Positions 2,372 through 50,160 of a DNA stretch of 64,000 nt are shown one piece after another (position 1 is the stretch's first letter; each line of letters opens with the position of its first letter). The position numbers were made by a program, and so were the translations under genes. Source of the DNA: a virus; IMG/VR virus record IMGVR_UViG_3300036852_000741, positions 41,352-105,351 of that record; one strand, written 5' to 3'. The notes beneath the pieces were generated by a model. It made no database searches. It was not told where the DNA came from and saw only the letters and a list, made by a program, of their open reading frames with translations.

Positions 2372-2561
2372 ACCACCAGGGGTGGGGACCGACGCGGTGG
2401 CGTCCTGGTATTCGGTCCCCACCCGGCCCTTTCTCGCATGTTTGGTGCGCGGGCATGACTGGACTCAGCAGGCGCAGATAGACGCACCGTCGGGCCGGCG
2501 TTTCACGGTGTACCTGTGCGCCCAGTGCGGGGTGCGCATCCAGTACGACGAGTCGTTCTGA
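2325..2561 (+). CDS. Small protein with CxxC zinc-ribbon-like end
   Basis: The well-formed part is the C-terminal 40 residues, with GHDW followed by CAQCGVRIQYDE, a pattern typical of tiny phage zinc-ribbon proteins. The start is uncertain. ATG 2325 gives 78 residues but makes the gene read through a strong hairpin at 2380-2424. GTG 2445, downstream of the hairpin, would give only 38 residues. Its TGA overlaps the ATG of the MuF gene by one base (TGATG), so the two are probably translationally coupled. Confidence 0.5.
   Translation: MAFPRELGVALAALPRPPGVGTDAVASWYSVPTRPFLACLVRGHDWTQQAQIDAPSGRRFTVYLCAQCGVRIQYDESF
2380..2424 (+). terminator. Perfect 13-bp hairpin, terminator-like
   Basis: GGGTGGGGACCGA at 2380-2392 is exactly complementary to TCGGTCCCCACCC at 2412-2424, with a 19-nt loop. 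The sequence after it is GGCCCTTTCTCG, a weak T-run. It could end the portal transcript or form a structured leader ahead of the small zinc-ribbon gene and MuF. Confidence 0.5.
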
Positions 2562-5500
2562 TGGCGGCGCGGCGCCCGCAGCCCGCACCACCGCCGAGCT
2601 TTGACCAGGCAGCCCAGGGGCAGGACGCCGGCTCGCTCAGTGCGCCGGTAGCCGGCCTCGCCGTCGGGGGTGTGGGCGCTGGTGCCGGAGTGGGCGCCGG
2701 CTACGTGGCGGGGGCCGTCACCGCCGCCGCGGGCGCTGCCGCGATCGCCAAGGCCACCAAGGCGATCCTCGCCGCGCTCGTGCGGTTCTTCAGGCGCAAG
2801 AACGCCGACGACCTGGTGTGGCTCGTGGGCGCCCTGCGCCAGGCCCGAGCGGCGGAGGGCGTCACCGACGACGAGCTACGCGCGATCGCCCGCGACGAAA
2901 TCAAGCTGGAGCAGCAGTTTCAGAAGAAGGCGATGGCCCGCTGGGCCGCGGCGCTGCCCAGGCTCCTGGCGATCGCCGACCCGCAGGAGCGTAACTCCGC
3001 GATCGCCAAGTTCCAGGCCCTCGAACGCCACTATCTCAACCTGCGCCAGCAGGCGATGGTCACCCGCGCCGACTCCCGCATCGAGCAGCGCCTGCTCAAG
3101 GAGCTATCCCCCCGCGGCGCCTACTGGAAGCTGTCGCCCTTCGTGATGAAGTCCACCCCCGACTGCATCGCCCTCGCCGGCAAGGTGTGGCCGTGGAGCG
3201 TGATAGATGCCGTGGGCCCACCGCCCCGGCATTTTGGTTGCGCGTGCACCCTCTACGGAGTGGACGAGGCCAAGGCCGCCGGCTGGATCACCGACGCCCA
3301 GGTCCCCACCGACGAGCACGCCGCGCTGCGCCAGGCCCGCGACCTCCTGCGCCGAGCCGAGAAGCTGGAGGAGGCCGTCGGCGAGCACTTCGACCACTGG
3401 GCGGCTTATCACGACGGTAAGACCGAGGACCCCCCCACCCGGGTTGCTGCCCTCGCGCTCGACCACTTTTTGGAGGAGGGCCACAAACCAAAAGCTACGC
3501 AGGCGGAGGAAGCGGCCTACGAGGAGCACCTCCACCCCCGAAACCGACTCGGGCGCTGGGCCGAGGTCCTCAAGTACAACCCCCACCTCCCCGGCGAGGC
3601 GCGCAACAGCCGCTACCGCGACGCCGAAGGCAAGCTCACCGGGCACATCGAGTACGGGCCGAAGTTCCTGGACCTCCCCGCCCGCCAGCAGGAGCACGTG
3701 CTCGCCCACGAGATAGGCCACGACCTGGACGACGACCTGCTGCGCGACCCGCACTCCTGGGTGTGGGACGAGTGGAACTGGGCCGACCGCGCCTTCGAGC
3801 ACCTCATGGGCGGGCCGAACACCACCCCGGGCGAGCGCATCGCAGACGCCTACGCCGCCGCGTTCGTGGGCAGCGTCGAGGACGCCGTGCGCTGGCCGGC
3901 GGTGCTGCGCATCGCCCAAGAGGCCAAGGCGCGCGGGCTCCCGATCCACGAGCGCATCGAGGCACTGCTGCCCGAGGAGCCCAACGACGAGCCCGGCGAG
4001 GTGCTGGCCGACCTGGACTGGCGCGCCGGCTACGAGGGGCGCAGGCGCTGGGAGGCGCTACCCGACGACGCCTGGGTGTGGCTGTTTCACGCCACCCGCC
4101 GTGAGGACGCCGAGGCGTTCGCGCAGCGCGGCATCGACCCGCTGGCCAAGCCGCGTTCGCTGGCGCGCGAGCGCTACGAGGCCGGCGAGCACGCCACCTT
4201 CCAGCCGGGTGCCGGCGTCGGCGGCGGCCTGTACGTCTCCCCCACCGCGCATGGCGCCAGCGGCTACGGCCGCGAGCTACTGGCGGTCAAGGTCCGCAAG
4301 CGCGACGTGATCGTGCCGCCCGAGCAGCACGGGGCGACGGTGGCGATGGCGCTGGGCGTCAGCGACGCGATGGTGGCCAGGGCGATCCCACCCGAGCACG
4401 TGCGACGCATCGAGACCGGTGGACGGGAGCTAGCGCCGGAGGCGGCAGCGGCGCTCCTGCGCGAGCCGAAGGCCGAGCCCGCCCGGCGACTGTACGGGGC
4501 GACCCCCGAGCGCCTGGCCGACTTCGCCGCGGCGCTGCACAGGCTGGACCGGATCACCCGGGCGGACGTGGAGGCGGGGCGAGTGCCGGGCGTGGCGATG
4601 GGCGGGCTGGCCGCGGGCGTCGCGGGACGTGCGGACCTGGCGGAGGGGACGATCACGCTCACCCCGAGCAGCTTCAACGCGGACGGCACGATCGACTCCG
4701 TGCACTTCGCCCACGAGGTCGGGCACTTCCTCGTGCACGCGGTCCTGCGTGACGGCAAGGTGCCACCCGAGCTTGAGGCGATGGCGGCGGGGCATGGTCG
4801 GGCCGAGGGGCGCTACGGCAAGATCGCCGGGGAGGGCGCCAGGCTGTTTGGGCCGGACGCCAAGCTGCCGGAGGAGTTCATCGCGGACTCCTACGCCGAC
4901 CTGATCCACGGCCGAGCGGAGTTCTCCTACGTGCCGGGCCTGGACGGACCCGATGATCCCGAGTCCCGCGAGGCGGCGCTGCGCGAGTTCGACGCCAGGC
5001 CGCAGACGCGGTGGCTGCGCTGGCTGGCGGGCGTGGCCGGGGAGCACGGCCTGCCCGACCGGGGCCTGTGGCGGTTCGTGCGCGACGAGGACGGCATCTA
5101 CCGACTCGTGGCGCGTGAACTCCAGGAGGCCGAGTACGACGACACGCTGCACCCAAGGGGCCGCCTTGAGACGGTCGGGCATGAACTGCCACGGCTGGAG
5201 TGGGTGGACCCGCCGCCGCTCAAGCCCAGAACCGGCGAGCGCAAGGCGGGCGGTTTCACCGCGACCGGCCAGACGACTACCAAGCTCGGCGACCTGATCG
5301 AGGGCCTGCTTGTGGGCCAGCTTGGACTGCGGTCGCTGCTGCCGGAGGGCGGGCGCCAAAGCCCGCTGGACGCGGGGATTGGCGAGTGGGGCTTCGAGGT
5401 CAAGGTGGTCACGACGGCGGCGTCCGAACTGAAGATCAAGCCCAAGAAGCACGAGGTGGCGAGCAAGGTCGCCTACGCGCAGGAGAACGGGCTGACGGCG

Positions 5501-5638
5501 GCGTCGATGATCGTGGTGGTGGACGTGGACGCCAAGAGGGCGTGGGCCTATTGGCGTGAGGGGATCGGCGCCTACCGACTCACGAGGGAGCCCCCGTGGC
5601 ATTTCATGGGGTCGCTGGAGCTACCGGCGGCGGCGTGA
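2561..5638 (+). CDS. MuF-like head protein with two zincin domains, ADP-ribosyltransferase-like and nuclease-like domains
   Basis: The protein has 1025 residues against about 250-450 for a plain MuF protein. The N-terminus is Ala/Gly-rich and hydrophobic to about residue 70. The MuF-type segment, with its D-C...GK...PPPxHxxCxC signature, lies at about 188-230. A linker LHPRNRLGR begins at 324. HEIGH (383-387) marks the first HExxH metallopeptidase-like domain. Residues 505-620 look like an ADP-ribosyltransferase: LFHATRREDAEAF, then GGGLYVSPTAHGASGYG. HEVGH (718-722) marks a second zincin, with the expected downstream E/D-rich helix. A second tag, LHPRGRLE, begins at 863. The last 130 residues carry a restriction-nuclease-like E-x-K pattern (GFEVKVV). 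MuF proteins are carried in the capsid and often bear toxin domains, so ejection with the DNA is inferred. I chose ATG 2561 (TGATG overlap with the previous stop) over the upstream GTG at 2516. Confidence 0.8.
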   Translation: MAARRPQPAPPPSFDQAAQGQDAGSLSAPVAGLAVGGVGAGAGVGAGYVAGAVTAAAGAAAIAKATKAILAALVRFFRRKNADDLVWLVGALRQARAAEGVTDDELRAIARDEIKLEQQFQKKAMARWAAALPRLLAIADPQERNSAIAKFQALERHYLNLRQQAMVTRADSRIEQRLLKELSPRGAYWKLSPFVMKSTPDCIALAGKVWPWSVIDAVGPPPRHFGCACTLYGVDEAKAAGWITDAQVPTDEHAALRQARDLLRRAEKLEEAVGEHFDHWAAYHDGKTEDPPTRVAALALDHFLEEGHKPKATQAEEAAYEEHLHPRNRLGRWAEVLKYNPHLPGEARNSRYRDAEGKLTGHIEYGPKFLDLPARQQEHVLAHEIGHDLDDDLLRDPHSWVWDEWNWADRAFEHLMGGPNTTPGERIADAYAAAFVGSVEDAVRWPAVLRIAQEAKARGLPIHERIEALLPEEPNDEPGEVLADLDWRAGYEGRRRWEALPDDAWVWLFHATRREDAEAFAQRGIDPLAKPRSLARERYEAGEHATFQPGAGVGGGLYVSPTAHGASGYGRELLAVKVRKRDVIVPPEQHGATVAMALGVSDAMVARAIPPEHVRRIETGGRELAPEAAAALLREPKAEPARRLYGATPERLADFAAALHRLDRITRADVEAGRVPGVAMGGLAAGVAGRADLAEGTITLTPSSFNADGTIDSVHFAHEVGHFLVHAVLRDGKVPPELEAMAAGHGRAEGRYGKIAGEGARLFGPDAKLPEEFIADSYADLIHGRAEFSYVPGLDGPDDPESREAALREFDARPQTRWLRWLAGVAGEHGLPDRGLWRFVRDEDGIYRLVARELQEAEYDDTLHPRGRLETVGHELPRLEWVDPPPLKPRTGERKAGGFTATGQTTTKLGDLIEGLLVGQLGLRSLLPEGGRQSPLDAGIGEWGFEVKVVTTAASELKIKPKKHEVASKVAYAQENGLTAASMIVVVDVDAKRAWAYWREGIGAYRLTREPPWHFMGSLELPAAA

Positions 5639-5675
5639 CGTAGGTAGCCTGCGCGGCCCCGACGGAGGAGTGCGC

Positions 5676-5852
5676 GTGCCGAGCCCCCGCCGCAAGTCCG
5701 ACGACCCGCCGCCGGCACCCCGGGTGGTTCGGGGCCCTGGCGACGGGTGGCGCTACACCGACAGGGAGACCGGCGAGACGATCGGCTACGTCGAGGCGTT
5801 CACGCGGATGAGCGCTCGCAAGTTCCGCTTCAAGAAGAAGGCCAAGGAGTAG
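5676..5852 (+). CDS. Small basic hypothetical protein
   Basis: A 58-residue protein with a basic Pro-rich N-terminus and a C-terminus of clustered Lys/Arg (KFRFKKKAKE). The GTG start is preceded by GGAGGAG at 5665-5671. The middle (GWRYTDRETGETIGYVEAF) looks like a short beta hairpin. Function is unknown; the charge would suit nucleic-acid or head association. Confidence 0.5.
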   Translation: MPSPRRKSDDPPPAPRVVRGPGDGWRYTDRETGETIGYVEAFTRMSARKFRFKKKAKE

Positions 5853-6021
5853 GCTGCCGGCTGGCGGTGCTGGCGAGACTCCACGGCCGAGTCCTGCGGG
5901 GCGTTGAGGCCAAGAACGAAGCTGCGCGATGAGCGACCGGGTGCGCGCGTAGCCCCTCGTCTGGGGGCACCCGGGCTAGCGCCGCCCCCTCGAACGCCTC
6001 AAGCCAGTACCTTGCCGCGCC
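5853..6021 (+). other. Intergenic region with short hairpin and promoter
   Basis: No credible gene is seen in this 169-nt gap. GCCCC at 5952-5956 pairs with GGGGC at 5964-5968 around a 7-nt loop, a weak terminator candidate without a T-run. A TACCTT box follows at 6008 ahead of the next gene. Confidence 0.5.
6008..6013 (+). promoter_or_regulatory. Candidate -10 box of a leaderless gene
   Basis: TACCTT ends 8 nt before ATG 6022 and no ribosome site intervenes. Transcription would begin at or next to the start codon, as at eight other + strand genes in this window. Confidence 0.4.
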
Positions 6022-6174
6022 ATGACCAACACCAATCTGCGAGTAATCGTGGCGGGCCTGGTCGTGACGGCCGCGACCGTCGGGCTCTACGCGATCGAGG
6101 CGCCGTTGTGGCTTCTGGCGCTGGTGAGCGTGGTGGGCTCCCTGTCGATGATCGCCTGGGCGTTTGACGAGTGA
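6022..6174 (+). CDS. Small two-pass membrane protein
   Basis: Fifty residues with two hydrophobic helices (about 8-24 and 28-46) and a DE end. It is too short for many gene callers. Its TGA overlaps the GTG of the next gene (GTGA). Function is unknown. Confidence 0.55.
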   Translation: MTNTNLRVIVAGLVVTAATVGLYAIEAPLWLLALVSVVGSLSMIAWAFDE

Positions 6175-6458
6175 GCGCTGGGGCGTCCGGGCCGGCTGAG
6201 AGACTGGCGGGCCCGACCTTCCAGGAGGCCCACATGCGCGAGGCGATCATGAGTGAGCTAGCGGCACGCAACGGCGGGCCGGGACTCACGGCCCGTGAGC
6301 TTGCCAGCTTCCTGCACGCGCCCGAGGCGATCGTGCGCAACATGCTCGCGGCGCTCGTGTTCCGCGAGAAGTGCGTGACGTGCGATGCGCGTGGCCGCTT
6401 CTCTATCGGTGAGCCCTCGGCGCTGCTGGCCGCCGGGCCGATGCCGCTGGGGGCGTGA
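6171..6458 (+). CDS. Small winged-helix-like protein
   Basis: Residues 25-75 read as a helix-turn-helix or winged helix: MSELAARNGGPGLTARELASFL, then a recognition-helix-like stretch (APEAIVRNMLAALV) and a CxxC-containing wing. It resembles the second half of the protein at 16157-16684. It could be a small DNA-binding regulator. It is coupled to both neighbours through 4-nt or 1-nt overlaps. Confidence 0.5.
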   Translation: MSAGASGPAERLAGPTFQEAHMREAIMSELAARNGGPGLTARELASFLHAPEAIVRNMLAALVFREKCVTCDARGRFSIGEPSALLAAGPMPLGA

Positions 6459-6694
6459 TGGCCGAGGCCGAGGAGAACGGCTGGATTCGGTGTGAGCGCA
6501 GCCACGAGGTCAAGGTGGGCGTGCTCTCCGGTCGGCTTGTGGTCCTGTACGTCAACGTGGACGGCCGCGCGGCGAGCCTCTCGCTGCTGGACCCGGAGGT
6601 CGCGCGCGAGCTTGGTGACGCGCTGGAGGCGGCGGCGGTGAAGGTCGGGGCGCCGATCCGCGCGGCGCATGAGAACCCGAGGGCGGGGCGGTGA
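6458..6694 (+). CDS. Hypothetical protein
   Basis: A 78-residue protein with a predicted beta-rich N-terminal half (VKVGVLSGRLVVLYVNVDG) and a helix (PEVARELGDALEAAAVKV). ATG 6458 overlaps the upstream TGA. The family is not recognised. Confidence 0.55.
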   Translation: MAEAEENGWIRCERSHEVKVGVLSGRLVVLYVNVDGRAASLSLLDPEVARELGDALEAAAVKVGAPIRAAHENPRAGR

Positions 6695-6936
6695 GCATCG
6701 AGCGCATGTTCTACTGCGAGGGGCCGGGCTGTGGCGACCAGCACGACGACGGCCTGCCGGTGCACGCCATCACCGCGAGCCCGTACCCCCATCTTCCGAT
6801 GGGCTTCATCGAGACCCGCCAGCGCCAGGACGGCGAGGACTTCGAGCACCACTTCTGCTCGTGGGACTGCTTGATGAAGTACGCCGCCCAGCACCCACCG
6901 CCGGAGATGATCGAGGTGGAGGACCCCGGCTCGTGA
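6691..6936 (+). CDS. Small Cys-rich protein, zinc-finger-like
   Basis: An 81-residue protein with a CEGPGC pair near the N-terminus and a C-x3-C pair (FCSWDC) around residue 60, consistent with a single zinc site. The GTG start overlaps the preceding stop (GTGA). It is one of many small Cys-pair proteins here; no function can be assigned. Confidence 0.55.
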   Translation: MSIERMFYCEGPGCGDQHDDGLPVHAITASPYPHLPMGFIETRQRQDGEDFEHHFCSWDCLMKYAAQHPPPEMIEVEDPGS

Positions 6937-7049
6937 ACGCCGAGGATGAGCGGCGGCTGGCGCACGCGTTCTGGCGCGGCTACTACTTCGGCGCGGCCGT
7001 CGGGGTCGCCGGGTTCGTCGGCGGGATGCTGTTGGCGAGGCTGGCCTGA
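6933..7049 (+). CDS. 38-residue single-pass membrane protein
   Basis: A charged start (MNAEDERRLAHAFW) is followed by one hydrophobic helix (FGAAVGVAGFVGGMLLARLA). It is linked to both neighbours by overlapping stop/start codons, which supports a real gene despite its size. Confidence 0.45.
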   Translation: MNAEDERRLAHAFWRGYYFGAAVGVAGFVGGMLLARLA

Positions 7050-7222
7050 TGCGAGGGAAGCAAGCCCCGACGCGCGGGGAGTGGGGGCGGATGCCGGCGG
7101 CCTTCGGCGCGATGATTGTCGTGGGCTTGTACCTGCGCTGGGCCGACCCGCCCGTTGGCCTCGGCTTCGTTGTCCTGCTGGTGTGCAACCTCATCGTGGG
7201 GCGGTGGGTCGAGCATGGCTGA
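7049..7222 (+). CDS. 57-residue two-pass membrane protein
   Basis: A basic N-terminus precedes two hydrophobic segments (about 16-31 and 36-52). ATG 7049 overlaps the preceding TGA. Together with the gene before it, it makes a membrane-protein pair of unknown role. Confidence 0.45.
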   Translation: MRGKQAPTRGEWGRMPAAFGAMIVVGLYLRWADPPVGLGFVVLLVCNLIVGRWVEHG

Positions 7223-7231
7223 GGGGCAGTG

Positions 7232-7405
7232 ATGGATCGGCTTGGGCCGCGCTGCGGGTGTTGCGGGCAGCCGCTGGACCCGCCGCTGGACTTCCTGGCC
7301 CGAGTGGTGATGCGGGGTGCGGCGACGTGGCTGTGGACGCTGCCCTGCCGAATCTGCGAGGCGTTCGCCCGGCTGCGGGCGCTGCGTGACGGGGGTCCGT
7401 GGTGA
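7232..7405 (+). CDS. 57-residue zinc-ribbon protein
   Basis: RCGCCG at residues 7-12 and PCRIC at 42-46 form two Cys pairs, the minimal zinc-ribbon layout. A purine-rich GAGGGG lies upstream of ATG 7232. The stop overlaps the start of the next gene. Confidence 0.5.
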   Translation: MDRLGPRCGCCGQPLDPPLDFLARVVMRGAATWLWTLPCRICEAFARLRALRDGGPW

Positions 7406-7677
7406 CTGGCGCCCCGCGGGAAAAGCGACTGTCCGTGTTCCGGCGGGTCTACCTGTTCGCCCGCGACTACTTCAGCGAGTTCGGCATCGCCTGGTCGTTG
7501 GCGCGGATGCACGACTGCGAGCGCAACGGCGGACACCGCTGGGGCGACGTGCAGCCCGACGAAACGATGGGCCGCGGGCAGACCTGCTCGCGCTGCGGGA
7601 CCTTCCGTGGCGTGACGAAGACCAGCGGGACGGCTGTCACGAACACGCCGCTGTCTGTCCAGATGCGGACGAAGTGA
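7399..7677 (+). CDS. Small zinc-knuckle protein
   Basis: A 92-residue protein with a basic, aromatic N-terminal helix and a CERNGGHxW...CSRCG motif in the second half, resembling phage HNH-free zinc knuckles. The start is GTG 7399 or the adjacent GTG 7402. Its last residues (QMRTK) come from the first copy of the junction repeat. Confidence 0.55.
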   Translation: MVTGAPREKRLSVFRRVYLFARDYFSEFGIAWSLARMHDCERNGGHRWGDVQPDETMGRGQTCSRCGTFRGVTKTSGTAVTNTPLSVQMRTK

Positions 7678-7689
7678 CCGAGGACAGAG
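7665..7689 (+). repeat. Junction repeat copy 1
   Basis: GCGGACGA, followed by GACCGAGGACAG, spans the end of one small gene and supplies the ribosome site (GAGGACAG) of the next. It is a divergent copy of the GCGGACGACCGGAGGGACGC core. Confidence 0.45.
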
Positions 7690-7887
7690 ATGACGGTGTT
7701 TGCAGCGTTCAACGATGAGCAACTTGACGAACTGACGGAGGCATTGGATGCCGCCTACCGCGAGGGCGGTTTCGACACCGAGGGCGATCTTGCAGGCGCG
7801 TTACGCACTGAGCATGAGGCGCGTGCAAGGCCGATGGCCAAGGCTCATGGGGCGCCGCCCTGCACGCCCAAGGAGTGGGGGCGTTGA
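7690..7887 (+). CDS. Hypothetical protein
   Basis: A 65-residue, mostly acidic helical protein (FNDEQLDELTEALDAAYREGG) with a basic end. ATG 7690 follows the junction repeat. No family is recognised. Confidence 0.5.
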   Translation: MTVFAAFNDEQLDELTEALDAAYREGGFDTEGDLAGALRTEHEARARPMAKAHGAPPCTPKEWGR

Positions 7888-7888
7888 T

Positions 7889-7915
7889 AGCTGCCACATC
7901 GCGGACGGAGAAGCC
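7889..7915 (+). repeat. Junction repeat copy 2
   Basis: AGCTGCCACATCGCGGACGG followed by AGAAGCC leads into ATG 7916. It shares GCTGCxxCxTCGCGGACGG with copies 3, 4 and 8. Here it lies just outside the upstream gene. Confidence 0.6.
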
Positions 7916-8146
7916 ATGAGGCGCCGCCTCCTGCTGCTGTGGCTGCGCACCGGCTACCGGCCGCTCGCGCGGCTACTCCACCGCTTCGACCTGCACCACA
8001 CCGTTCGCATGGGCCCGCTGGAGGACGGCGTGACCGTCCACCGCTGCGAGTGGTGCGGCGTCAGCAGGACCGAGGTTCCGATGGAGGTCACGATGCGCCG
8101 GATGGCTGCTGCTTCGCGGACGACCGGAGGGACGCCGAATGCCTGA
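7916..8146 (+). CDS. Small basic protein with CxxC motif
   Basis: A 76-residue protein with a hydrophobic/basic N-terminus (RRRLLLLWLRTGYR), a CEWCG pair near residue 43 and a C-terminus AAASRTTGGTP encoded by the junction repeat. I prefer ATG 7916 over the in-frame upstream ATG at 7748, which would overlap the previous gene. Confidence 0.5.
   Translation: MRRRLLLLWLRTGYRPLARLLHRFDLHHTVRMGPLEDGVTVHRCEWCGVSRTEVPMEVTMRRMAAASRTTGGTPNA
8104..8138 (+). repeat. Junction repeat copy 3
   Basis: GGCTGCTGCTTCGCGGACGA plus CCGGAGGGACGCCGA encodes the C-terminus of the upstream gene and provides the GGAGGGA ribosome site of the downstream one. It is the most complete copy. Confidence 0.65.
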
Positions 8147-8342
8147 CTGGCAGCAGAACGAGTACGGCAACTGGGTTCCTGCCGAGCCGCTGGAAGGCAC
8201 GTTCGGGCTGCGATGGGAGTTCGCGTGGCAGCATCGCCGCTCGCTGGGCCAAAACATCGTTCGTGCCGTCGTGGGCGGCTGGCGCGACACGCGCACCGTC
8301 GATCGGCTGGCTGCTACGTCGCGGACGGAGAGCCAGCGATGA
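8139..8342 (+). CDS. Hypothetical protein
   Basis: A 67-residue, Trp-rich protein (DWQQNEYGNWVPAEPLEG), ending AATSRTESQR from the next junction repeat. It overlaps the upstream gene by 8 nt. Function is unknown. Confidence 0.5.
   Translation: MPDWQQNEYGNWVPAEPLEGTFGLRWEFAWQHRRSLGQNIVRAVVGGWRDTRTVDRLAATSRTESQR
8309..8338 (+). repeat. Junction repeat copy 4
   Basis: GGCTGCTACGTCGCGGACGG plus AGAGCCAGCG precedes ATG 8339. It is close to copy 2 and copy 8. Confidence 0.6.
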
Positions 8343-8572
8343 CCCAGCGGGATCGGCGGCAATTGTCACAAACGGCGCTCGCGGAGACTCCACTAGATAT
8401 GAGCCAACCCCGCAAGACCGCAGACGACCTGCTCCGCGAGTGGATGCAGGAGAACGACGACGCCAAGCGCGCAGTCCTCCGCAGGCAGTACTTCGACGCC
8501 AGAGCCATCGAGCTTCGTCGCCCGGCGAAACGACGGGCCGCCCCTAAGCGGACGACCGGAGAGACGCCATGA
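8339..8572 (+). CDS. Hypothetical helical protein
   Basis: A 77-residue, highly charged protein rich in Arg/Lys/Asp, probably all helical (TADDLLREWMQENDDAKRAV). It ends PKRTTGETP, encoded by the junction repeat. ATG 8339 overlaps the previous stop (ATGA). Confidence 0.5.
   Translation: MTQRDRRQLSQTALAETPLDMSQPRKTADDLLREWMQENDDAKRAVLRRQYFDARAIELRRPAKRRAAPKRTTGETP
8544..8568 (+). repeat. Junction repeat copy 5
   Basis: AAGCGGACGACCGGAGAG followed by ACGCC leads into ATG 8569. The TCG of other copies is replaced by TAA here. Confidence 0.6.
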
Positions 8573-8835
8573 GCGAGTGCGATTGCCCGCACATGCCCGG
8601 ACGCCCCCCGGCGTACCACGCGATCGACTGCCCGCTCGCGCCTCCTGGGGACCAGAAGGTCATCTTCGAGGAACACGCCATCGAGGCGATCGGATGGCTC
8701 AGCGCCGAACTGGCGGGTCGCGCCGACGCCTGGAACGGCAACGCGCCCGACTGGTTCCCTGAGCCGCCCGAGTTCCTCGACCTGTGGCGTCAGGCGTTGG
8801 CTTCTACTAAGCGGACGACCGAGGGGACGCCGTGA
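8569..8835 (+). CDS. Small Cys/His protein
   Basis: An 88-residue protein with an N-terminal CDCPHMPG...H...CPLAP cluster of possible zinc ligands, then an acidic, Trp-rich region. It ends STKRTTEGTP from the junction repeat. The N-terminus resembles tiny phage zinc-binding proteins, but the family is not recognised. Confidence 0.5.
   Translation: MSECDCPHMPGRPPAYHAIDCPLAPPGDQKVIFEEHAIEAIGWLSAELAGRADAWNGNAPDWFPEPPEFLDLWRQALASTKRTTEGTP
8805..8831 (+). repeat. Junction repeat copy 6
   Basis: ACTAAGCGGACGACCGAGGG plus GACGCC precedes GTG 8832. Confidence 0.6.
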
Positions 8836-8990
8836 GCTACCCGTTGCTCTGTCAACGCTGCGGTCGCCCGGCCGGTCTGACAAGCGAGCCCAAGCAGCCC
8901 GATCCCGAACGGGTGGTCGTACGGTGCTGGGACTGCCATCGCCGTGGGCGCATCTCGCTGGCTGTCCCTAAGCGGACGGAGAAATCGTGA
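8832..8990 (+). CDS. 52-residue zinc-ribbon protein
   Basis: Two Cys pairs (CQRCG and CWDCH) separated by about 25 residues form a clear treble-clef or ribbon layout. The C-terminus PKRTEKS is encoded by the junction repeat. It starts with GTG and overlaps the preceding stop by 4 nt. Confidence 0.55.
   Translation: MSYPLLCQRCGRPAGLTSEPKQPDPERVVVRCWDCHRRGRISLAVPKRTEKS
8961..8986 (+). repeat. Junction repeat copy 7
   Basis: GCTGTCCCTAAGCGGACGG plus AGAAATC precedes GTG 8987. This is a short form lacking the GACCGGAGG part. Confidence 0.5.
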
Positions 8991-9121
8991 GCGCGGTCTA
9001 CTGGTTCATCCGGTATCTGCTGGCGCTCTGCTTCCGCCGCCCCGACGCCGTTGCGATCTATCGGTCGATGGCTGCTACTTCGCGGACGATCCAGCAGCCA
9101 GCGGAGGGCGAGGGCCCATGA
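8987..9121 (+). CDS. 44-residue hypothetical protein
   Basis: A hydrophobic N-terminus (YWFIRYLLALCF) followed by a tail AATSRTIQQP from the junction repeat. Support comes mainly from its position in the overlap chain. Confidence 0.4.
   Translation: MSAVYWFIRYLLALCFRRPDAVAIYRSMAATSRTIQQPAEGEGP
9069..9117 (+). repeat. Junction repeat copy 8
   Basis: TGGCTGCTACTTCGCGGACG followed by an extended purine-rich stretch (GCGGAGGGCGAGGG) before ATG 9118. It is longer than other copies. Confidence 0.55.
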
Positions 9122-9429
9122 CGGAGCCGCGCAATGAGCCGCCAGCTTCCGCTCCGCGGGAAACTCAGAAGCTGGCCGATCCGGACGTGGCCTTCATCCT
9201 TGAGCGACTCAGGCAATCGGGCAGGGAGAAGGACGAGCCGGTGCTGGCGCTTGCGGCGGCGCTCGTCGTGGCCGAGGCCGAGGTCGAGCGGCTGCGCGAG
9301 GCGCTGCGCCGGATCGCCGAGGAGCCGTGCCCGCATCCCGGACCAACCGTCCCGATGTGCCCCTACTGCGCTGAGGATGCGCGCGAGGCACTGGCGCTCG
9401 GTATGCGGACGACCGGAGGGCCGACGTGA
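9118..9429 (+). CDS. Coiled-coil protein with CxxC end
   Basis: A 103-residue protein with a heptad-like helix (ALVVAEAEVERLREALRRI), then CPHPGP...CPYC, a likely zinc knuckle, and a C-terminus MRTTGGPT from the junction repeat. It overlaps by 4 nt the large zincin gene that follows, so it may be co-expressed with it. Confidence 0.55.
   Translation: MTEPRNEPPASAPRETQKLADPDVAFILERLRQSGREKDEPVLALAAALVVAEAEVERLREALRRIAEEPCPHPGPTVPMCPYCAEDAREALALGMRTTGGPT
9404..9425 (+). repeat. Junction repeat copy 9
   Basis: ATGCGGACGACCGGAGGG followed by CCGAC leads into GTG 9426, the large cargo-like gene. The array therefore ends at a virion-type protein. Confidence 0.6.
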
Positions 9430-11381
9430 CGTTCGTGTTGTGGATCAGCGAGGACGATGGCATCGACCTTGGGCCAACGCCGGAACTGCTCGCCGCCTTC
9501 CGTGAGATGGCGCAGGCGGCCGACGGCGACGAGTACGGGCAACTCTGGTACGTCCCGCAGACCGCCGACGAGACGATGCCGGCTGACTACATCGCGGCGG
9601 CGTCCGCCCAGGCGGCGGACCTGCTGGTGGCGGCCGGCGACAGGCTGGGCGGGCACGCGCGCTGGGTCCTGGAGCGCCTGGCGGCGGCGGGTGCCCTGGA
9701 GGAGGCGTTCAGCCCGGACCAGCCGCGCTACCCGAAGGGCCACCCGAAGGCCGGGCAGTGGCGTCCGAAGATCGCCGCCGGCCGGGGCCGGATCGCCCCC
9801 GGGCATCTGAAGAACGACCTGTTCTACCTGCGCTACTCGATCAAGGCCGCCCAGGAGGCGCCGCAGGCGCAGGGCGCGGTGGTGGGCACCCGTCGCCTGG
9901 CGGAAATCGGCCACGAGGTCGAGAAGATCGCGCTGCGCTACTCGACGCGCCGCGACTACGAGAAGCGTCTGGCGGACATCCGCGCGGAGCGCAGGCGCAT
10001 CTCTGATGCGCACTGGGAGCGTTGGGAGGGGTGGGCCCATACCGCCACCGGGGAGGAGTGGAAGGCCGCCTCGATGGACGAGGAGCGCTTTCTGTCCGCG
10101 CGCGACAAGGAGCGCCTGGCGGAGATAGTGACCGAGGAACTGAAGCTCGCGCGCGACCGCGATCGCGCCGACAAGGACGCGATCCTGGGGGTGCTCGCCG
10201 AGATGCGCAAAATGGGCGGCAAGGTGCGCCAGGGGTCAGTGAACATCGACCCGGAGGACCCCGACGGCTACTTCTTCATCGCGCTCAAGAGCGGCGAGCA
10301 GCGGGAGGTCACCCACGAGACGACGATTCAGGCGATAGAGGAGTCGCGCACCAAGGTGCAGGCCGCCTACCGCAACGTGGCCAAGCTGTTGCCGGCGGAC
10401 TGGCTGGCGGATACGTCGGCAAAGGGCGAGGTGCACACGCTGTTGTCCACCAAGCGGGCGTGGCATCGCCGGGAGACGCCGAGCGTGCTGCGCGACCCGT
10501 GGGAGGCGGCCCGCCACAAGTTCACCGAGCTACAGAGCGAGGGCCACAAGTTCCTGGGCCTGCACAAGCAGTACCCGTTCGCGCTGTTCGCCGACAGGGA
10601 CACCGGCGAGGTCTTCGCGCTGCGCCAGGACGGCACTGTGGTCACCGAGGCGTGGGATCGCGTCAGGCTCGTGAGCTTCCCGATGGCCGGCGAGGGCACC
10701 CTGGAGGACATCTTGGTGCCGGCGCACAGTCTGCCGGCCGCCCCGCTCAAGCCGGGCGCGAAGGACTACTACGCCGAGATGCGCGCGGAGGCTCTGCGGC
10801 TGATGCGCGAGGAGGGCTACGCCTGGGTGGGGATGCGCGGCAAGTGGGGAACGCTGCGCTCGCCGCAGGGCGAGGAGGTGAGCCTGGACTGGGCGGGCAA
10901 GCCGCTGACCTCGCAGGTGGGCGCGGGCGGCACCAAGGCCGCCCTGCCGCCGCTGCTGCCCGGTGTGATCCCCGACCCACCGCCACCGAAGGTCGAGGAC
11001 TCCACCATCCGGGTGGACCCTCGGGACGAGCACAAGGTCCTCCACGAGCTAGCCCACCGTATGGAGGTCGTGGTGGGCGAGGAGAACCAGGCCGGCTACC
11101 GTCCGCTGCACTATGCCGCCCTGCTGTTCTTGCAGCAGCGCACCCAGGGTGAGAGCCTGGTGAAACTCATCGACCTGTACCCCGGCTACGCCTACGAGGA
11201 CGACGAGGTGACCCGCCCGGACAAGTTTGTGGACGCCTACGTTGGCAAGGACTATGGCGGCCGGGCCACCGAGGTCATCACAATGGGCCTCGAAATGCTG
11301 TTCTATCCGCGCTACAAGCGTGATCTGGCCGACGACCCGGAGATGAAGCGATGGGTGCTGGGACTGCTGGCAGCGGCGTGA
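9426..11381 (+). CDS. Large phage protein with zincin metallopeptidase domain, candidate virion cargo
   Basis: The protein has 651 residues. It contains the tag-like sequence RYPKGHPKAGQW at 101-112, then a long charged helical region (about 150-260), beta-rich segments (about 280-460) and a C-terminal HExxH motif HELAH at 540-544, followed by a helix with GGRATEVITMGLEMLF that could supply the third zinc ligand (Glu). This resembles metallopeptidase domains attached to MuF-type head proteins. The gene is preceded by a chain of small overlapping genes and starts with GTG. The substrate is unknown; self-processing of packaged proteins or a host target are both possible. Confidence 0.6.
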   Translation: MTFVLWISEDDGIDLGPTPELLAAFREMAQAADGDEYGQLWYVPQTADETMPADYIAAASAQAADLLVAAGDRLGGHARWVLERLAAAGALEEAFSPDQPRYPKGHPKAGQWRPKIAAGRGRIAPGHLKNDLFYLRYSIKAAQEAPQAQGAVVGTRRLAEIGHEVEKIALRYSTRRDYEKRLADIRAERRRISDAHWERWEGWAHTATGEEWKAASMDEERFLSARDKERLAEIVTEELKLARDRDRADKDAILGVLAEMRKMGGKVRQGSVNIDPEDPDGYFFIALKSGEQREVTHETTIQAIEESRTKVQAAYRNVAKLLPADWLADTSAKGEVHTLLSTKRAWHRRETPSVLRDPWEAARHKFTELQSEGHKFLGLHKQYPFALFADRDTGEVFALRQDGTVVTEAWDRVRLVSFPMAGEGTLEDILVPAHSLPAAPLKPGAKDYYAEMRAEALRLMREEGYAWVGMRGKWGTLRSPQGEEVSLDWAGKPLTSQVGAGGTKAALPPLLPGVIPDPPPPKVEDSTIRVDPRDEHKVLHELAHRMEVVVGEENQAGYRPLHYAALLFLQQRTQGESLVKLIDLYPGYAYEDDEVTRPDKFVDAYVGKDYGGRATEVITMGLEMLFYPRYKRDLADDPEMKRWVLGLLAAA

Positions 11382-12491: not shown

Positions 12492-13013
12492 GTGAGGCGC
12501 AACGCCAGGCAGAAGGCGCGTCTCAGGGCACTGCGCGAGGTGTACGAGCGGCTGCCCAGGCTGGACTGCAAGGGCTTGTGCGGGCACTCCTGCGGGCCGA
12601 TCGGGATGTCGCCAGCCGAGTACGAGCGCTTCTGCGACCGGTTGGGTCGCGAGCCCAGGGAGCGGGTGACCTACAAGAACGATGGCGCGACGATGCTCAC
12701 GGCGACCTGGTGCCCGGCCTTGACGGCGGTGGGCCGCTGCCGCATCTACTCCGACCGGCCGATGGTTTGTCGCCTCTGGGGCGTGGTCGAGTCGATGCCC
12801 TGCCCGTACGGCTGCCTGCCCGAGGGCGGCTTGCTCAGCGACGTGGATGGGATGGCGCTGCTGGGCGACGCGATGGTGGCGGGCGGGGCGGTCTTGGTGG
12901 ACGGCGAGACCTTCCGGCAGCGGGTCGCCGAGGACCCGTCGCTGCTGGAGTTGGGGCGGCGCTGGACTCGGGATGGCATGGCGGCCGAGGAGCGCCGCGC
13001 CGGCTTACGCTAG
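12492..13013 (+). CDS. YkgJ-family Cys-cluster protein
   Basis: YkgJ-type proteins are predicted to chelate zinc or iron-sulfur clusters. The 173 residues show the family's spaced cysteines: CKGLCGHSCG near residue 27, CPAL...GRCRIY...RPMVCRLWG around 75-97, and CPYGC shortly after. The biochemical role of the family is not established. Phage copies exist, sometimes near metal-dependent enzymes. GTG start, second gene of the first operator-driven operon. Confidence 0.7.
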   Translation: MRRNARQKARLRALREVYERLPRLDCKGLCGHSCGPIGMSPAEYERFCDRLGREPRERVTYKNDGATMLTATWCPALTAVGRCRIYSDRPMVCRLWGVVESMPCPYGCLPEGGLLSDVDGMALLGDAMVAGGAVLVDGETFRQRVAEDPSLLELGRRWTRDGMAAEERRAGLR

Positions 13014-13033
13014 CTCATGATGTGTGCTACCAT
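13011..13033 (+). promoter_or_regulatory. Operator-promoter element 2
   Basis: AGCTCATGATGTGTGCT with -10 TACCAT (13028-13033). CGGGTGC at 13035-13041 pairs with GCACCCG at 13054-13060, and ACCGAGGAG follows as ribosome site for ATG 13075. The element overlaps the YkgJ-like stop codon. Confidence 0.65.
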
Positions 13034-13074
13034 TCGGGTGCCCTCATGGGGGCGCACCCGACCGAGGAGCGCGG

Positions 13075-13371
13075 ATGACCGACCTGACGACGATGCCGGA
13101 TCGCCACATCGTGGACGCGATGATCTACGCGGAGCGCCGGCTGGCCGAGCATCTGGAGATGGACTGCATGGGCGGCGGCGAGTACGACTGCCCACGGTGC
13201 TCAGCCGACCGGGACTTCATGCGGGCCGCCAACGCCGAGATGAAGCGCCGGGAGGAGGCGGGCATCCTCATCGAGGACCCAGACGAGCCGTCGTTCGAGG
13301 AGCGCCATGCGCCGTGGGGCCCGGAGTGGCAGCTTGAGCAGCGCGAGCGGGAGGGGTGGCACAGCCTATGA
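13075..13371 (+). CDS. Hypothetical helical protein with Cys pair
   Basis: Ninety-eight residues, charged and helical, with CMGGGEYDCPRC in the middle as a likely zinc site. It is first in the operon behind operator-promoter 2. ATG 13075 fits the ribosome site. Function is unknown. Confidence 0.55.
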   Translation: MTDLTTMPDRHIVDAMIYAERRLAEHLEMDCMGGGEYDCPRCSADRDFMRAANAEMKRREEAGILIEDPDEPSFEERHAPWGPEWQLEQREREGWHSL

Positions 13372-14362: not shown

Positions 14363-14643
14363 GTGGGGAGGCGGCCCACCTAGTGGGGATGGGCCTGGGG
14401 CTCGGCTTTGCGGTGGCGTACGCAGCGTGGAGACTGCCGAGACGGAGACGTATGGCCCCTGGCGCCAGCCGGGAAGGCTGGAGGCCGGCATTTCGTTCGT
14501 GGCAGCGGATCGCCTTCTCGATCCTCTACGCGTGGGCGATCTACGGCATGTGGGTGACGGACGCCCAGTTCGCTCGCGTCACCGCGACGGGATTTTTTGT
14601 TGCCCTGGGGCTGCTTACTTGGCGCTTGCGGGTGCGCTCGTGA
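14359..14643 (+). CDS. Small membrane protein
   Basis: Ninety-four residues with three hydrophobic stretches (about 5-25, 50-65 and 72-88) and a basic loop (RLPRRRR) after the first. GTG start. Function is unknown. Confidence 0.45.
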   Translation: MSGEAAHLVGMGLGLGFAVAYAAWRLPRRRRMAPGASREGWRPAFRSWQRIAFSILYAWAIYGMWVTDAQFARVTATGFFVALGLLTWRLRVRS

Positions 14644-14858
14644 CGCGGGAAAAGCAGGGGACAGTCTCGTGGCTCTGCCCAGCCTGCGGGGCCATGATGT
14701 ACGAGGCTCGGCTCCTGAAGGGCTACCCGAAGACCGGGCCGGAGAGCGAGCGCCTGACGTGCGCGCTACATGGGCCTCGCGGCCGGTTCCACCACATTGC
14801 CACCGACCGGCGGGCTGCCGTATCGCGGACAAGGGGGGCGCTGGATGGCCCGTCGTGA
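14640..14858 (+). CDS. Small zinc-ribbon protein
   Basis: Seventy-two residues with CPACG and a later CALHG as ligand pairs. Its C-terminus (AAVSRTRG) is encoded by a tenth, isolated copy of the junction repeat. Confidence 0.5.
   Translation: MTREKQGTVSWLCPACGAMMYEARLLKGYPKTGPESERLTCALHGPRGRFHHIATDRRAAVSRTRGALDGPS
14812..14844 (+). repeat. Junction repeat copy 10, outlying
   Basis: GCTGCCGTATCGCGGACAAG plus GGGGGGCGCTGG precedes ATG 14845. It lies 5.4 kb from the main array, showing that the element is not confined to one cluster. Confidence 0.45.
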
Positions 14859-22865: not shown

Positions 22866-23133
22866 GCCAAGCGTGTTGGACGGAGCGTTCGAGGTGTTCG
22901 TGAGCTTGCTGTGGACCAGCGGCCTGATCGTCGGGGCGCTGATCTTCGCCGTGGGCTGGCGACTGGGCTCGCGCGCCCGCGAGCGCGACGAGATGATGCG
23001 CCTGTACTACGAGCGCCCGCACCTGCTGCGAGCGCGCACCGTGCTGGGGCCGTTGGCGCCGCGTCACCCGGCCGACGAGGACGAGTTCGCGCCCGAGGAT
23101 GGGCCCACGCGCGAGATGAGCGCCGTCGGGTAG
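22858..23133 (+). CDS. Single-pass membrane protein
   Basis: One hydrophobic helix (about 13-33) followed by an Arg-rich cytoplasmic-type stretch and an acidic tail, 91 residues with TTG 22858. A later GTG at 22870 is possible. It ends at operator-promoter 4. Confidence 0.5.
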   Translation: MPEPSVLDGAFEVFVSLLWTSGLIVGALIFAVGWRLGSRARERDEMMRLYYERPHLLRARTVLGPLAPRHPADEDEFAPEDGPTREMSAVG

Positions 23134-23153
23134 CTCACGTCGTGTGCTAGACT
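23131..23153 (+). promoter_or_regulatory. Operator-promoter element 4
   Basis: AGCTCACGTCGTGTGCT with -10 TAGACT (23148-23153). CTCCCT just after the -10 can pair with AGGGAG of the ribosome site CCGACCAAGGGAGG, which would mask it. Confidence 0.7.
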
Positions 23154-23192
23154 CCCTGGACTGACCGACCAAGGGAGGAGGCGAAGACGCTG

Positions 23193-24146
23193 ATGGGGCG
23201 CCCGCGCGGCACCTATCTCAAGTGGGAGCCGCAGCCGGAGACGAAGGTGCTGCTCGGCCACGTCCGCCAGGTGCTGATCGAGTACCAGAGCTATCTGCCG
23301 CTGACGCTGCGGCAGGTGTTCTACCGCTTGGTTGGCGCGTTCGGCTACGACAAGAAGGGCACGTACGAGCGCCTCAAGGAGCACGTCCCCAAGGCTCGCC
23401 GGGCGCTCATGATCCCGATGTGGGCGCTGCGCGACGATGGCATCAGCGTGCGAGAGAACGCCGGCTACGACGGGCCCGCGCACTTCTGGGATTCGGTGAG
23501 GGCGAGCATCGACGGCTACCGCCGCAACCGCCAGGAAGGCCAGCCGCAGTTCATCGAGTTGGCGTGCGAGGCCGCCGGCATGGTGCCCCAGCTTGCGCGT
23601 GTGGCAGAGCCCTTCGGTGTCCCGGTGTACTCGGGCGGCGGGTTCAACTCGATGAGTGCCGTCATGGAGACCTACGACCGGGTGCTCACGCGCGACGTGC
23701 CGACCGTGTTCTTGCACGTGGGCGACTACGACGCCTCGGGCGAGCACATCTTCCGCTCGTTTACCAACGACGTGGAGAAGTTCGTGCGCGACATCGGCAT
23801 CCTGCGCGAGGGTGGTCATACGACCGCCGTGGGGCAACTCACCAACGTCGAAGACGTACAGCCCGGCGCGGAGTTCAGGCCCTATCGGATCGCGCTCACC
23901 CGCGAGCAGATCAGGGAGCACCAGGTCGAGATGGCCGATGCCAACCCCGAGGATGACCGGGCCTGGGATGGCGACCTGGAGGGGCGCACGGCTCAGTTGG
24001 AGGCGCTGCCGCCGGACGTGCTCGCGGACATCGTGCGCGAGGCGATCGAGGCGCGCTTCGACGCCGACGCCTTCCAGGCGATCCAGGACCGCGAGAGCGC
24101 GGACCGCGACAGGCTCTGGGGGGACCTGGATGACGCCGGTCTCTGA
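23193..24146 (+). CDS. Spo11/TopoVI-A-like TOPRIM protein
   Basis: The 317-residue protein has LTLRQVFYRLV at about 37-47, resembling the region around the catalytic tyrosine of Spo11 and topoisomerase VI subunit A, and GDYDASGEHI at 177-186, the D-x-D-x-x-G TOPRIM metal-binding motif. Topoisomerase VI makes double-strand DNA breaks with subunit B, but no B subunit (GHKL ATPase) is visible. Similar stand-alone proteins occur on phages and plasmids; their function is not established. It is first gene after operator-promoter 4. Whether the tyrosine is catalytic here is uncertain. Confidence 0.65.
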   Translation: MGRPRGTYLKWEPQPETKVLLGHVRQVLIEYQSYLPLTLRQVFYRLVGAFGYDKKGTYERLKEHVPKARRALMIPMWALRDDGISVRENAGYDGPAHFWDSVRASIDGYRRNRQEGQPQFIELACEAAGMVPQLARVAEPFGVPVYSGGGFNSMSAVMETYDRVLTRDVPTVFLHVGDYDASGEHIFRSFTNDVEKFVRDIGILREGGHTTAVGQLTNVEDVQPGAEFRPYRIALTREQIREHQVEMADANPEDDRAWDGDLEGRTAQLEALPPDVLADIVREAIEARFDADAFQAIQDRESADRDRLWGDLDDAGL

Positions 24147-24366
24147 GCGGGAATACATGCGCGAGCCGTCGGAGGCGCCGACCGAGGAGATGCGGGTGGC
24201 GCCGCAGGTTGCCCACCGGCCGGCGTGGCTGACCCAGCCGTGGTGGGTGTGGAGCCTGGCGTTCGCCACCCTGCTGCACCCCGGCATCCTCGGCGTGGTG
24301 CTCGCCCTGTGGCTGGTGGTGGCGTGCCTGTTGGGGCTCGTGCGCTGGCTGGATCACCACACCTAG
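24130..24366 (+). CDS. Small membrane protein
   Basis: A 78-residue protein with a Pro/Trp-rich middle and one or two hydrophobic helices (about 40-70). ATG 24130 gives a 17-nt overlap with the previous gene; ATG 24157 is an alternative. Its stop lies inside operator-promoter 5. Confidence 0.45.
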   Translation: MTPVSEREYMREPSEAPTEEMRVAPQVAHRPAWLTQPWWVWSLAFATLLHPGILGVVLALWLVVACLLGLVRWLDHHT

Positions 24367-24386
24367 CGCACATCGTGTGCTACCCT
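24364..24386 (+). promoter_or_regulatory. Operator-promoter element 5
   Basis: AGCGCACATCGTGTGCT with -10 TACCCT (24381-24386), then CCGACCAAGGA as ribosome site. No leader hairpin is obvious in this copy. Confidence 0.65.
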
Positions 24387-24412
24387 GAGCGGAACCCGAC
24401 CAAGGAATGACG

Positions 24413-24673
24413 ATGGCTGAGCCCACCCCTGAGCAGTTGGAGCGCTACAACCGGATGATGGTCCTCGAAGGCAACGACATTGCCTTGGAGGTCACCAACA
24501 CCTACGGCGCCAACCTCAACGCGGGTGGGCGGACGGTCAGCCGCGAGGCGCTGGACTACCTGCTGCGTGAGATTGAGACGTGGGTGGGCACTCGCCTGCT
24601 CAAGCGGATGCAGGCCGACCTGCCGGCGAGCAAGGTGACGGTGCACCTCAGCGTGGAGTTCCCCCGTGAGTGA
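24413..24673 (+). CDS. Hypothetical protein
   Basis: An 86-residue helical protein with a Tyr/Asn-rich middle (ALEVTNTYGANLNAGG). ATG 24413 is better spaced from AAGGA than ATG 24407. It is first in the fifth operator-driven operon. Confidence 0.5.
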   Translation: MAEPTPEQLERYNRMMVLEGNDIALEVTNTYGANLNAGGRTVSREALDYLLREIETWVGTRLLKRMQADLPASKVTVHLSVEFPRE

Positions 24674-30106: not shown

Positions 30107-30129
30107 AAGCTCACATCGTGTGCTATCCT
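30107..30129 (+). promoter_or_regulatory. Operator-promoter element 6
   Basis: AGCTCACATCGTGTGCT with -10 TATCCT (30124-30129). CCTTGGT at 30127-30133 is exactly complementary to ACCAAGG at 30139-30145, which is part of the ribosome site. Confidence 0.7.
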
Positions 30130-30156
30130 TGGTTTCCGACCAAGGAGGAAGCGCAC

Positions 30157-30636
30157 ATGTCACCAGCTACCCACGACCGCGACTTCACGGACGAGATTGC
30201 TGTCCGCGAGGAGCAGGCCGGCTATGCAGGGATTTCGCGTAACGAGGCGATCAAGGCGATCCGGGCGGCGCTCAAACGGCGCACCGGCAAGACGTGGAGC
30301 GTGACCGGCGGCCGGGGGAGCGCCTGGGGCTGGATTCGCATTGACGCTCCGCCGAAGCGGCGCACTGCCGTCAGGGCCAAGACCGGCGAGAAGGACGCGA
30401 GCACCGGCTTCGACCTTCTCGCGCTGAGGGACACCGGCATCCCGCAGGAGTTCGGCCACATGACCCAGGAGGACCACGACCTTCTCTGCGAGACGCTCGG
30501 ATGCACGGACGCGATCGGCGGGTGCCTGCACAGCCAGGGCATCCAGGTTCCCGCCAGCAGCGACTACCGCGCCGAGTACATCGCCCGCGCCGAGGGCCGC
30601 AAGCCCGCGGTCTACGGGGTCCAGTATTGGGACTGA
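30157..30636 (+). CDS. LPD-like (anti-restriction associated) small protein
   Basis: In this 159-residue protein the N-terminal half reads EAIKAIRAALKRRTGKTWSV, GRGSAWGWIRIDAPP, like the LPD29-type domain found in large polyvalent and anti-restriction proteins. The second half has a C/H cluster (LCETLGCTDAIGGCLH). The domain assignment is from memory and tentative. It stands alone behind operator-promoter 6. Confidence 0.5.
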   Translation: MSPATHDRDFTDEIAVREEQAGYAGISRNEAIKAIRAALKRRTGKTWSVTGGRGSAWGWIRIDAPPKRRTAVRAKTGEKDASTGFDLLALRDTGIPQEFGHMTQEDHDLLCETLGCTDAIGGCLHSQGIQVPASSDYRAEYIARAEGRKPAVYGVQYWD

Positions 30637-50096: not shown

Positions 50097-50119
50097 GTGC
50101 TCACGATGTGCGCTATACT
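50097..50119 (+). promoter_or_regulatory. Operator-promoter element 8
   Basis: GCTCACGATGTGCGCT with -10 TATACT (50114-50119), the closest of the eight to consensus TATAAT. A GCGAC/GTCGC hairpin and CCGACCAAGGAGAGG follow, then ATG 50161. Confidence 0.7.
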
Positions 50120-50160
50120 CCTGGTGCGACGCAGTGTCGCGATCCCGACCAAGGAGAGGC

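Follow-up and report, generated by a model that had tools for sequence, protein, structure and literature searches.

Nine consecutive gene boundaries in the genome of an uncultivated phage carry one repeated sequence element, in which the core GCGGACG lies 15–36 nt upstream of the next start codon (about positions 7665–9426). The genome is IMG/VR record IMGVR_UViG_3300036852_000741 (105,351 bases), and the window, the whole 64,000-nt stretch of DNA analysed here, comprises its bases 41352–105351. With about as much confidence as doubt, we consider the element to be a start-associated junction private to this phage, in a translation-coupled array of accessory genes that was assembled or reshuffled by short-homology recombination. 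The accumulation of runs of tiny orphan genes in phages is an open question, and a junction that unites the joint, the stop, the ribosome site and the start would offer a simple, testable route for gene gain, because a gene joined at the core would be expressed immediately and neither neighbour would be harmed.

Anatomy of the junction element

The initial annotation had described a repeated element at nine gene boundaries and an outlier near 14812, and both are borne out. The core is present at all nine boundaries on the + strand (Table 1), an outcome with a chance probability of ~1.7e-20 as computed from the frequency of GCGGACG elsewhere. The usual and fullest form of the junction is TGGCTGCTACTTCGCGGACGACCGGAGGGACGCC, followed by ATG. 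The full GCGGACGACCGGAGGGACGC type occurs in four copies (0, 1, 2 and 2 mismatches), a number reached in 0 of 100 shuffles, while the other copies have the core and a 5′ extension in common (8 matches within 3 mismatches versus 0.33 expected). In every copy a GGAG/GAGG-type ribosome site lies immediately upstream of the next start, where that annotation had claimed one for most copies, and conservation continues for ~18 nt upstream of this site, within the end of the preceding coding sequence. The outlier is a diverged tenth copy, GCTGCCGTATCGCGGACAAGGGGGGCGCTGG, which lies upstream of the ATG at 14845 and is read in the same frame. A search of the genome for further copies added one strong match on the opposite strand (G000:C1 31127-31144, in L005), which lies within a coding gene and is not start-associated. 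The element is confined to one run of neighbouring genes and one outlier, and is not spread over the genome.

The further claim, that the element encodes an RTTxGTP-like C-terminus of the upstream gene, holds in part. Nine of ten copies keep the frame in which the upstream gene encodes Arg-Thr (CGG ACG), but the RTTxGTP-like tail itself is limited to the four long copies; the remaining ones have (A)A-x-[S/K/M]-R-T in common, and at 7901 the element lies 13 nt past the upstream stop. That copy lies in a frame in which ..LIAATSRTEKP* would run on into the ATGA overlap, a layout that looks like an old frameshift at the end of the upstream gene. Selection might act on the shared C-terminus (AAxSRT or PKRT) as a peptide, making it a protein tag that, for instance, directs the products to one shared partner. 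Such a tag would suit a frame that stays constant over variable distances to the next start, and an outlier that retains AAVSRT by way of a synonymous ACA (core GCGGACA). We find it scarcely credible, however, as CGGACG is conserved as DNA while the residue preceding Arg-Thr switches among Ser, Lys and Met, and copy 2 is untranslated by its upstream ORF. In addition, the third codon positions of the coding part are no more variable (0.38) than the first and second (0.47 and 0.42), and because the positions vary about equally, selection on the tail peptide is unlikely.

Each copy, ~35 bp long, covers the final codons of one tiny gene as well as the ribosome site and start codon of the next, an anatomy from which it probably serves to start and couple the translation of each gene. 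Most array boundaries are ATGA or GTGA stop-start overlaps, which is the commonest boundary type across the window anyway (24 of 86). Two other roles were considered for the element and rejected. Folding of the ten junctions revealed no common RNA fold or hairpin, which argues against an RNA structure, and there were no Rfam matches in the window. A promoter was rejected by inspection, as the element is without the palindrome plus TANNNT of the lineage.

Table 1. Coordinates of the junction copies, neighbouring genes and other features (window positions unless a locus is named; distances run from the first base of the core to the next start codon)
Feature	Position	Strand	Remarks
1040-aa gene	2516..5638	+	left boundary of tiny-gene cluster (5676-9429); homologs in 8 relatives
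Junction copy 1	7645..7689	+	core 7665-7671, 25 nt to start; ATG-type 5′ half; upstream gene end ..QMRTK*
Tiny gene, 65 aa	7690..7887	+	GC3 0.68
Junction copy 2	7881..7915	+	core 7901-7907, 15 nt to start; TCG type, short 3′ half; past upstream stop
Tiny gene, 76 aa	7916..8146	+	CxxC pair; C-terminal end MAAASRTTGGTPNA
Junction copy 3	8096..8138	+	core 8116-8122, 23 nt to start; TCG type, long 3′ half
Tiny gene, 67 aa	8139..8342	+	C-terminal end LAATSRTESQR
Junction copy 4	8301..8338	+	core 8321-8327, 18 nt to start; TCG type, short 3′ half
Tiny gene, 77 aa (or 57 aa, internal start 8399)	8339..8572	+	C-terminal end AAPKRTTGETP
Junction copy 5	8528..8568	+	core 8548-8554, 21 nt to start; AAG type, long 3′ half
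Tiny gene, 88 aa	8569..8835	+	C-terminal end ASTKRTTEGTP
Junction copy 6	8791..8831	+	core 8811-8817, 21 nt to start; AAG type, long 3′ half
Tiny gene, 52 aa	8832..8990	+	zinc-ribbon-like CxxC..CxxC, family scores all below cut-off; end AVPKRTEKS
Junction copy 7	8952..8986	+	core 8972-8978, 15 nt to start; AAG type, short 3′ half
Tiny gene, 44 aa	8987..9121	+	C-terminal end MAATSRTIQQPAEGEGP
Junction copy 8	9062..9117	+	core 9082-9088, 36 nt to start; TCG type, aberrant 36-nt 3′ half
Tiny gene, 103 aa	9118..9429	+	C-terminal end LALGMRTTGGPT
Junction copy 9	9385..9425	+	core 9405-9411, 21 nt to start; ATG type, long 3′ half
651-aa gene	9426..11381	+	function unknown; right array boundary; homolog in relative G005, 42-48% identical
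Diverged tenth copy	14814..14844	+	core GCGGACA; in frame, encodes AAVSRTRG of gene 14640-14858
Leader modules	13012-13075, 23132-23193, 24365-24413, 30108-30157, 50098-50161		many sites in L004, L005
Compared intervals	5638-9426 vs L101:6391-9561, L102:5936-9019, L103:6641-9847		same locus in relatives

Gene bodies and junction halves

A codon model trained on long genes gave a positive score for all eight genes between the copies. Their products (44–103 aa) had nothing above the cut-off in Pfam, PHROGs or NCBIfam, and no match in the phage collection, the viral contigs or 41 relatives. When the shared tails were removed, the gene bodies had no detectable similarity to one another or to the rest of the genome, in agreement with the initial annotation, which had called the genes unrelated. 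They have a GC3 of 0.79, below the 0.86 of other tiny genes (p 0.006).

Recent tandem duplication of whole genes had been named as the finding that would overturn the cassette interpretation, and the bodies bear no trace of it. An older series of duplications of one small gene with its junction, with bodies that diverged past recognition, would account for copies that are adjacent and direct. It would also suit the several products that are Cys-rich (CxxC pairs); the best body pair (7402/8832) reaches z 3.6 over 11 residues only. Nevertheless, this origin is decidedly improbable in view of the range of gene lengths, the absence of body similarity at either the protein or the DNA level, and halves of the junction that are uncorrelated, against a tree-like duplication.

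The 5′ halves, before the core, are of three types (TCG, AAG and ATG), and the 3′ halves, after it, are long (ACCGGAGGGACGCC) or short (GAGAAGCC). All four combinations of TCG or AAG with long or short are present: TCG-long at 8116, TCG-short at 7901 and 8321, AAG-long at 8548 and 8811, and AAG-short at 8972. If whole gene-plus-junction units had been duplicated along a tree, then the 5′ and 3′ parts should agree, and simulation of this process gave r of about 0.7, with no more than 0.2% of runs reaching r <= -0.31. The observed distances in the two halves were uncorrelated (r -0.14 to -0.43), a statistic that is thin with ten copies of ~35 nt each. Such reassorted halves are the trace that would be expected from joining at an invariant core, and they support it, the copies being few. 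A value of r near 0 would likewise be expected if the copies had a star-like origin and then changed repeatedly in parallel, and the short 3′ form might have arisen twice by an identical 4-nt deletion (GACC); the reassortment is therefore support, not proof.

The reassorted halves and the unrelated bodies lead us to infer past joining and reshuffling at the core. Because the core is identical at every boundary, it would have offered a joint for linking and reshuffling tiny accessory genes. The recombination may have been of a short-homology, probably annealing type, perhaps by way of the phage's RecT-type protein; RecT and PD-(D/E)XK nuclease genes in this phage are consistent with such a route. 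A stronger version, which we judge unlikely, is an integrase-free cassette array that builds itself. Each tiny gene would arrive with half a junction on either side and join at GCGGACG by the phage's annealing recombination, so that every insertion would restore a working stop, ribosome site and start. Reassorted halves are, in any case, a sequence signature that could be searched for in other phages.

As a tentative alternative, the element may have been selected solely for association with starts or for translation coupling; its spread would then be due to gene conversion or convergence, and it would play no part in gene exchange. The element does bring a ribosome site to every array start, known Start-Associated Sequences (SAS) act in such a way (PMC3203893, PMC7302621), and the part of the array element that holds the ribosome site matches the lineage motif CCCGACCRAGGAG a little better than other starts do (p 0.015). 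Selection of this kind sits less well with ~18 conserved nucleotides upstream of the ribosome site that are coding and in one frame in nine of ten copies, or with confinement to one run of neighbouring genes and an outlier rather than a genome-wide spread, and it leaves the reassorted halves without a reason. Derivation of the array ribosome site from CCCGACCRAGGAG is only suggested by that p value and was not adopted.

The phage and the same locus in its relatives

By the gene content of the record, this is a contractile-tailed phage. It encodes a portal, a gpA-type terminase, RecT, DnaB, a ParB-like protein, a PD-(D/E)XK nuclease, a Mu-gpT-like capsid, a tail sheath and RNase H; the upstream loci contain one tRNA-Asp gene and the window none. 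The phage collection held no near DNA relatives. With the capsid protein as the query of the viral contigs, 42 relatives were obtained, of which 41 matched at 61–87% identity over most of the protein and one by a short partial match. Queries with the portal, the 651-aa gene product and the terminase returned nothing or one distant match only; the terminase relative, at just 25% identity, lies in a 27-kb viral contig (L007). A related capsid, as a clue to the host, was not found in genome contigs. Elsewhere in the window, a 3305-aa ORF (36912-46829) has a carbohydrate-binding domain, and many near-identical 14-mers, e.g. GGCGTCAAGCACCC, recur at 37–47 kb with a spacing of ~60 nt or multiples of it; this region encodes a repetitive tail or fibre-like protein.

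In three relatives (G005, G011 and G002), the homolog of the 1040-aa gene is followed by a gene for a ~1050-aa CCA-transferase-like protein (CCA-transferase with PolyA_pol head and RNA-binding domains, HD and DUF7178), which replaces the tiny genes; in G005 and G011 a homolog of the 651-aa gene comes next. The window interval holds ~17 tiny genes, the last eight of which form the array, and a search of this record did not find the CCA-transferase-like gene. What occupies the locus thus differs wholesale between this phage and those relatives, which have one large gene in place of a tiny-gene run. The junction element is absent from all 41 relatives, and the stretches compared contained, as repeated junctions, only protein-repeat and low-complexity matches. 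The junction pattern had 0 matches in the viral contigs, and a looser pattern had 38, none in an array-like, start-associated context.

The arrangement had been read initially as the product of a cassette system that exchanges genes by homologous recombination at a shared junction. A common junction, unrelated genes, halves reassorted around an invariant core, the RecT-family annealing protein and the nuclease, and a locus whose content in relatives is wholly different all favour this reading. However, no actual junction swap is visible, because none of the 41 relatives has an array gene or the element, and selection on a start element would explain part of the pattern without exchange.

Known junction elements and the lineage-wide leader module

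The array element looks like a variation on elements described earlier from other phages. SAS/ESAS are known from cluster K mycobacteriophages and cluster EF Microbacterium phages (PMC3203893, PMC7302621). Like them, it is a short asymmetric sequence, conserved in multiple copies, that occupies the ribosome-site position within a few nt upstream of the start codons of small genes of unrelated families, nearly always in one orientation. SAS, however, are 13 bp long, intergenic, scattered over the right arm and common to relatives, whereas the array element is longer, forms a contiguous run (one cluster and the outlier), runs on in frame into the gene upstream and is restricted to a single record (0 of 41 relatives). 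Its sequence, GCGGACG(ACC)GGAG..., does not match the SAS 13-mer of either cluster K (GGGATAGGAGCCC) or cluster EF (GGGAAAGGACCCC).

Inserted genes flanked by direct repeats, for which gene gain or loss by repeat recombination was proposed, are known from cluster O mycobacteriophages (Corndog gene 14 and YungJamal gene 60; PMC4351075). There too a small gene lies between two 17–24 bp repeat copies at stop/start junctions, but with one gene, two copies and an empty site in relatives; the array covers nine consecutive boundaries and no empty site was seen. In cluster EC Microbacterium phages, an 18-bp motif likewise recurs ahead of the start codons of small genes that have been inserted into the structural region, with some copies in a small-gene run between terminase and portal (PMC7302621), but its place is in short intergenic stretches, 5′ of the ribosome site, and only some of the genes have it. 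An integron-like origin would call for a foldable attC-like site, and no common hairpin was found in the ten junctions. The array unites SAS-like and repeat-flanked-gene features at nine boundaries in a row, and no report of such a combination was found in the phage literature examined.

A different repeated element, the leader module, is common to this genome and its relatives. It consists of the palindromic, promoter-like AGCKCAYRHHGTGYGCTANNNT, often a hairpin with a GNRA-like loop, and then CCCGACCRAGGAG, and is present in up to about 20 copies per genome. There are 21 matches to AGCKCAYRHHGTGYGCTANNNT in this record and up to 20 in relatives, with 0 for a reversed control; a T often precedes it, so that TAG can serve as the stop of the upstream gene. 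Hairpins with a stem of at least 7 bp occur at 13 of 44 leader sites versus 2.3 in shuffles. CCCGACC[A/G]AGGAG has 15 exact copies in the record, with a start 3–13 nt further on at 41 of the 44 sites, and stands 4–9 nt upstream of the start in the modules of Table 1.

The T4-type mobile regulatory cassettes, reportedly described by Arbiol et al. in 2010 as repeated regulatory junctions that may shuffle small genes, are said to carry a promoter and a stem-loop. The array element has neither a promoter nor a consistent fold. The leader module is the better match to these cassettes and resembles SAS as well. It is perhaps more interesting than the array and may merit a separate study. Window positions 5658-5670, ahead of the first tiny gene of the cluster (5676), read CCCGACGGAGGAG, which departs from the lineage start motif by two mismatches.
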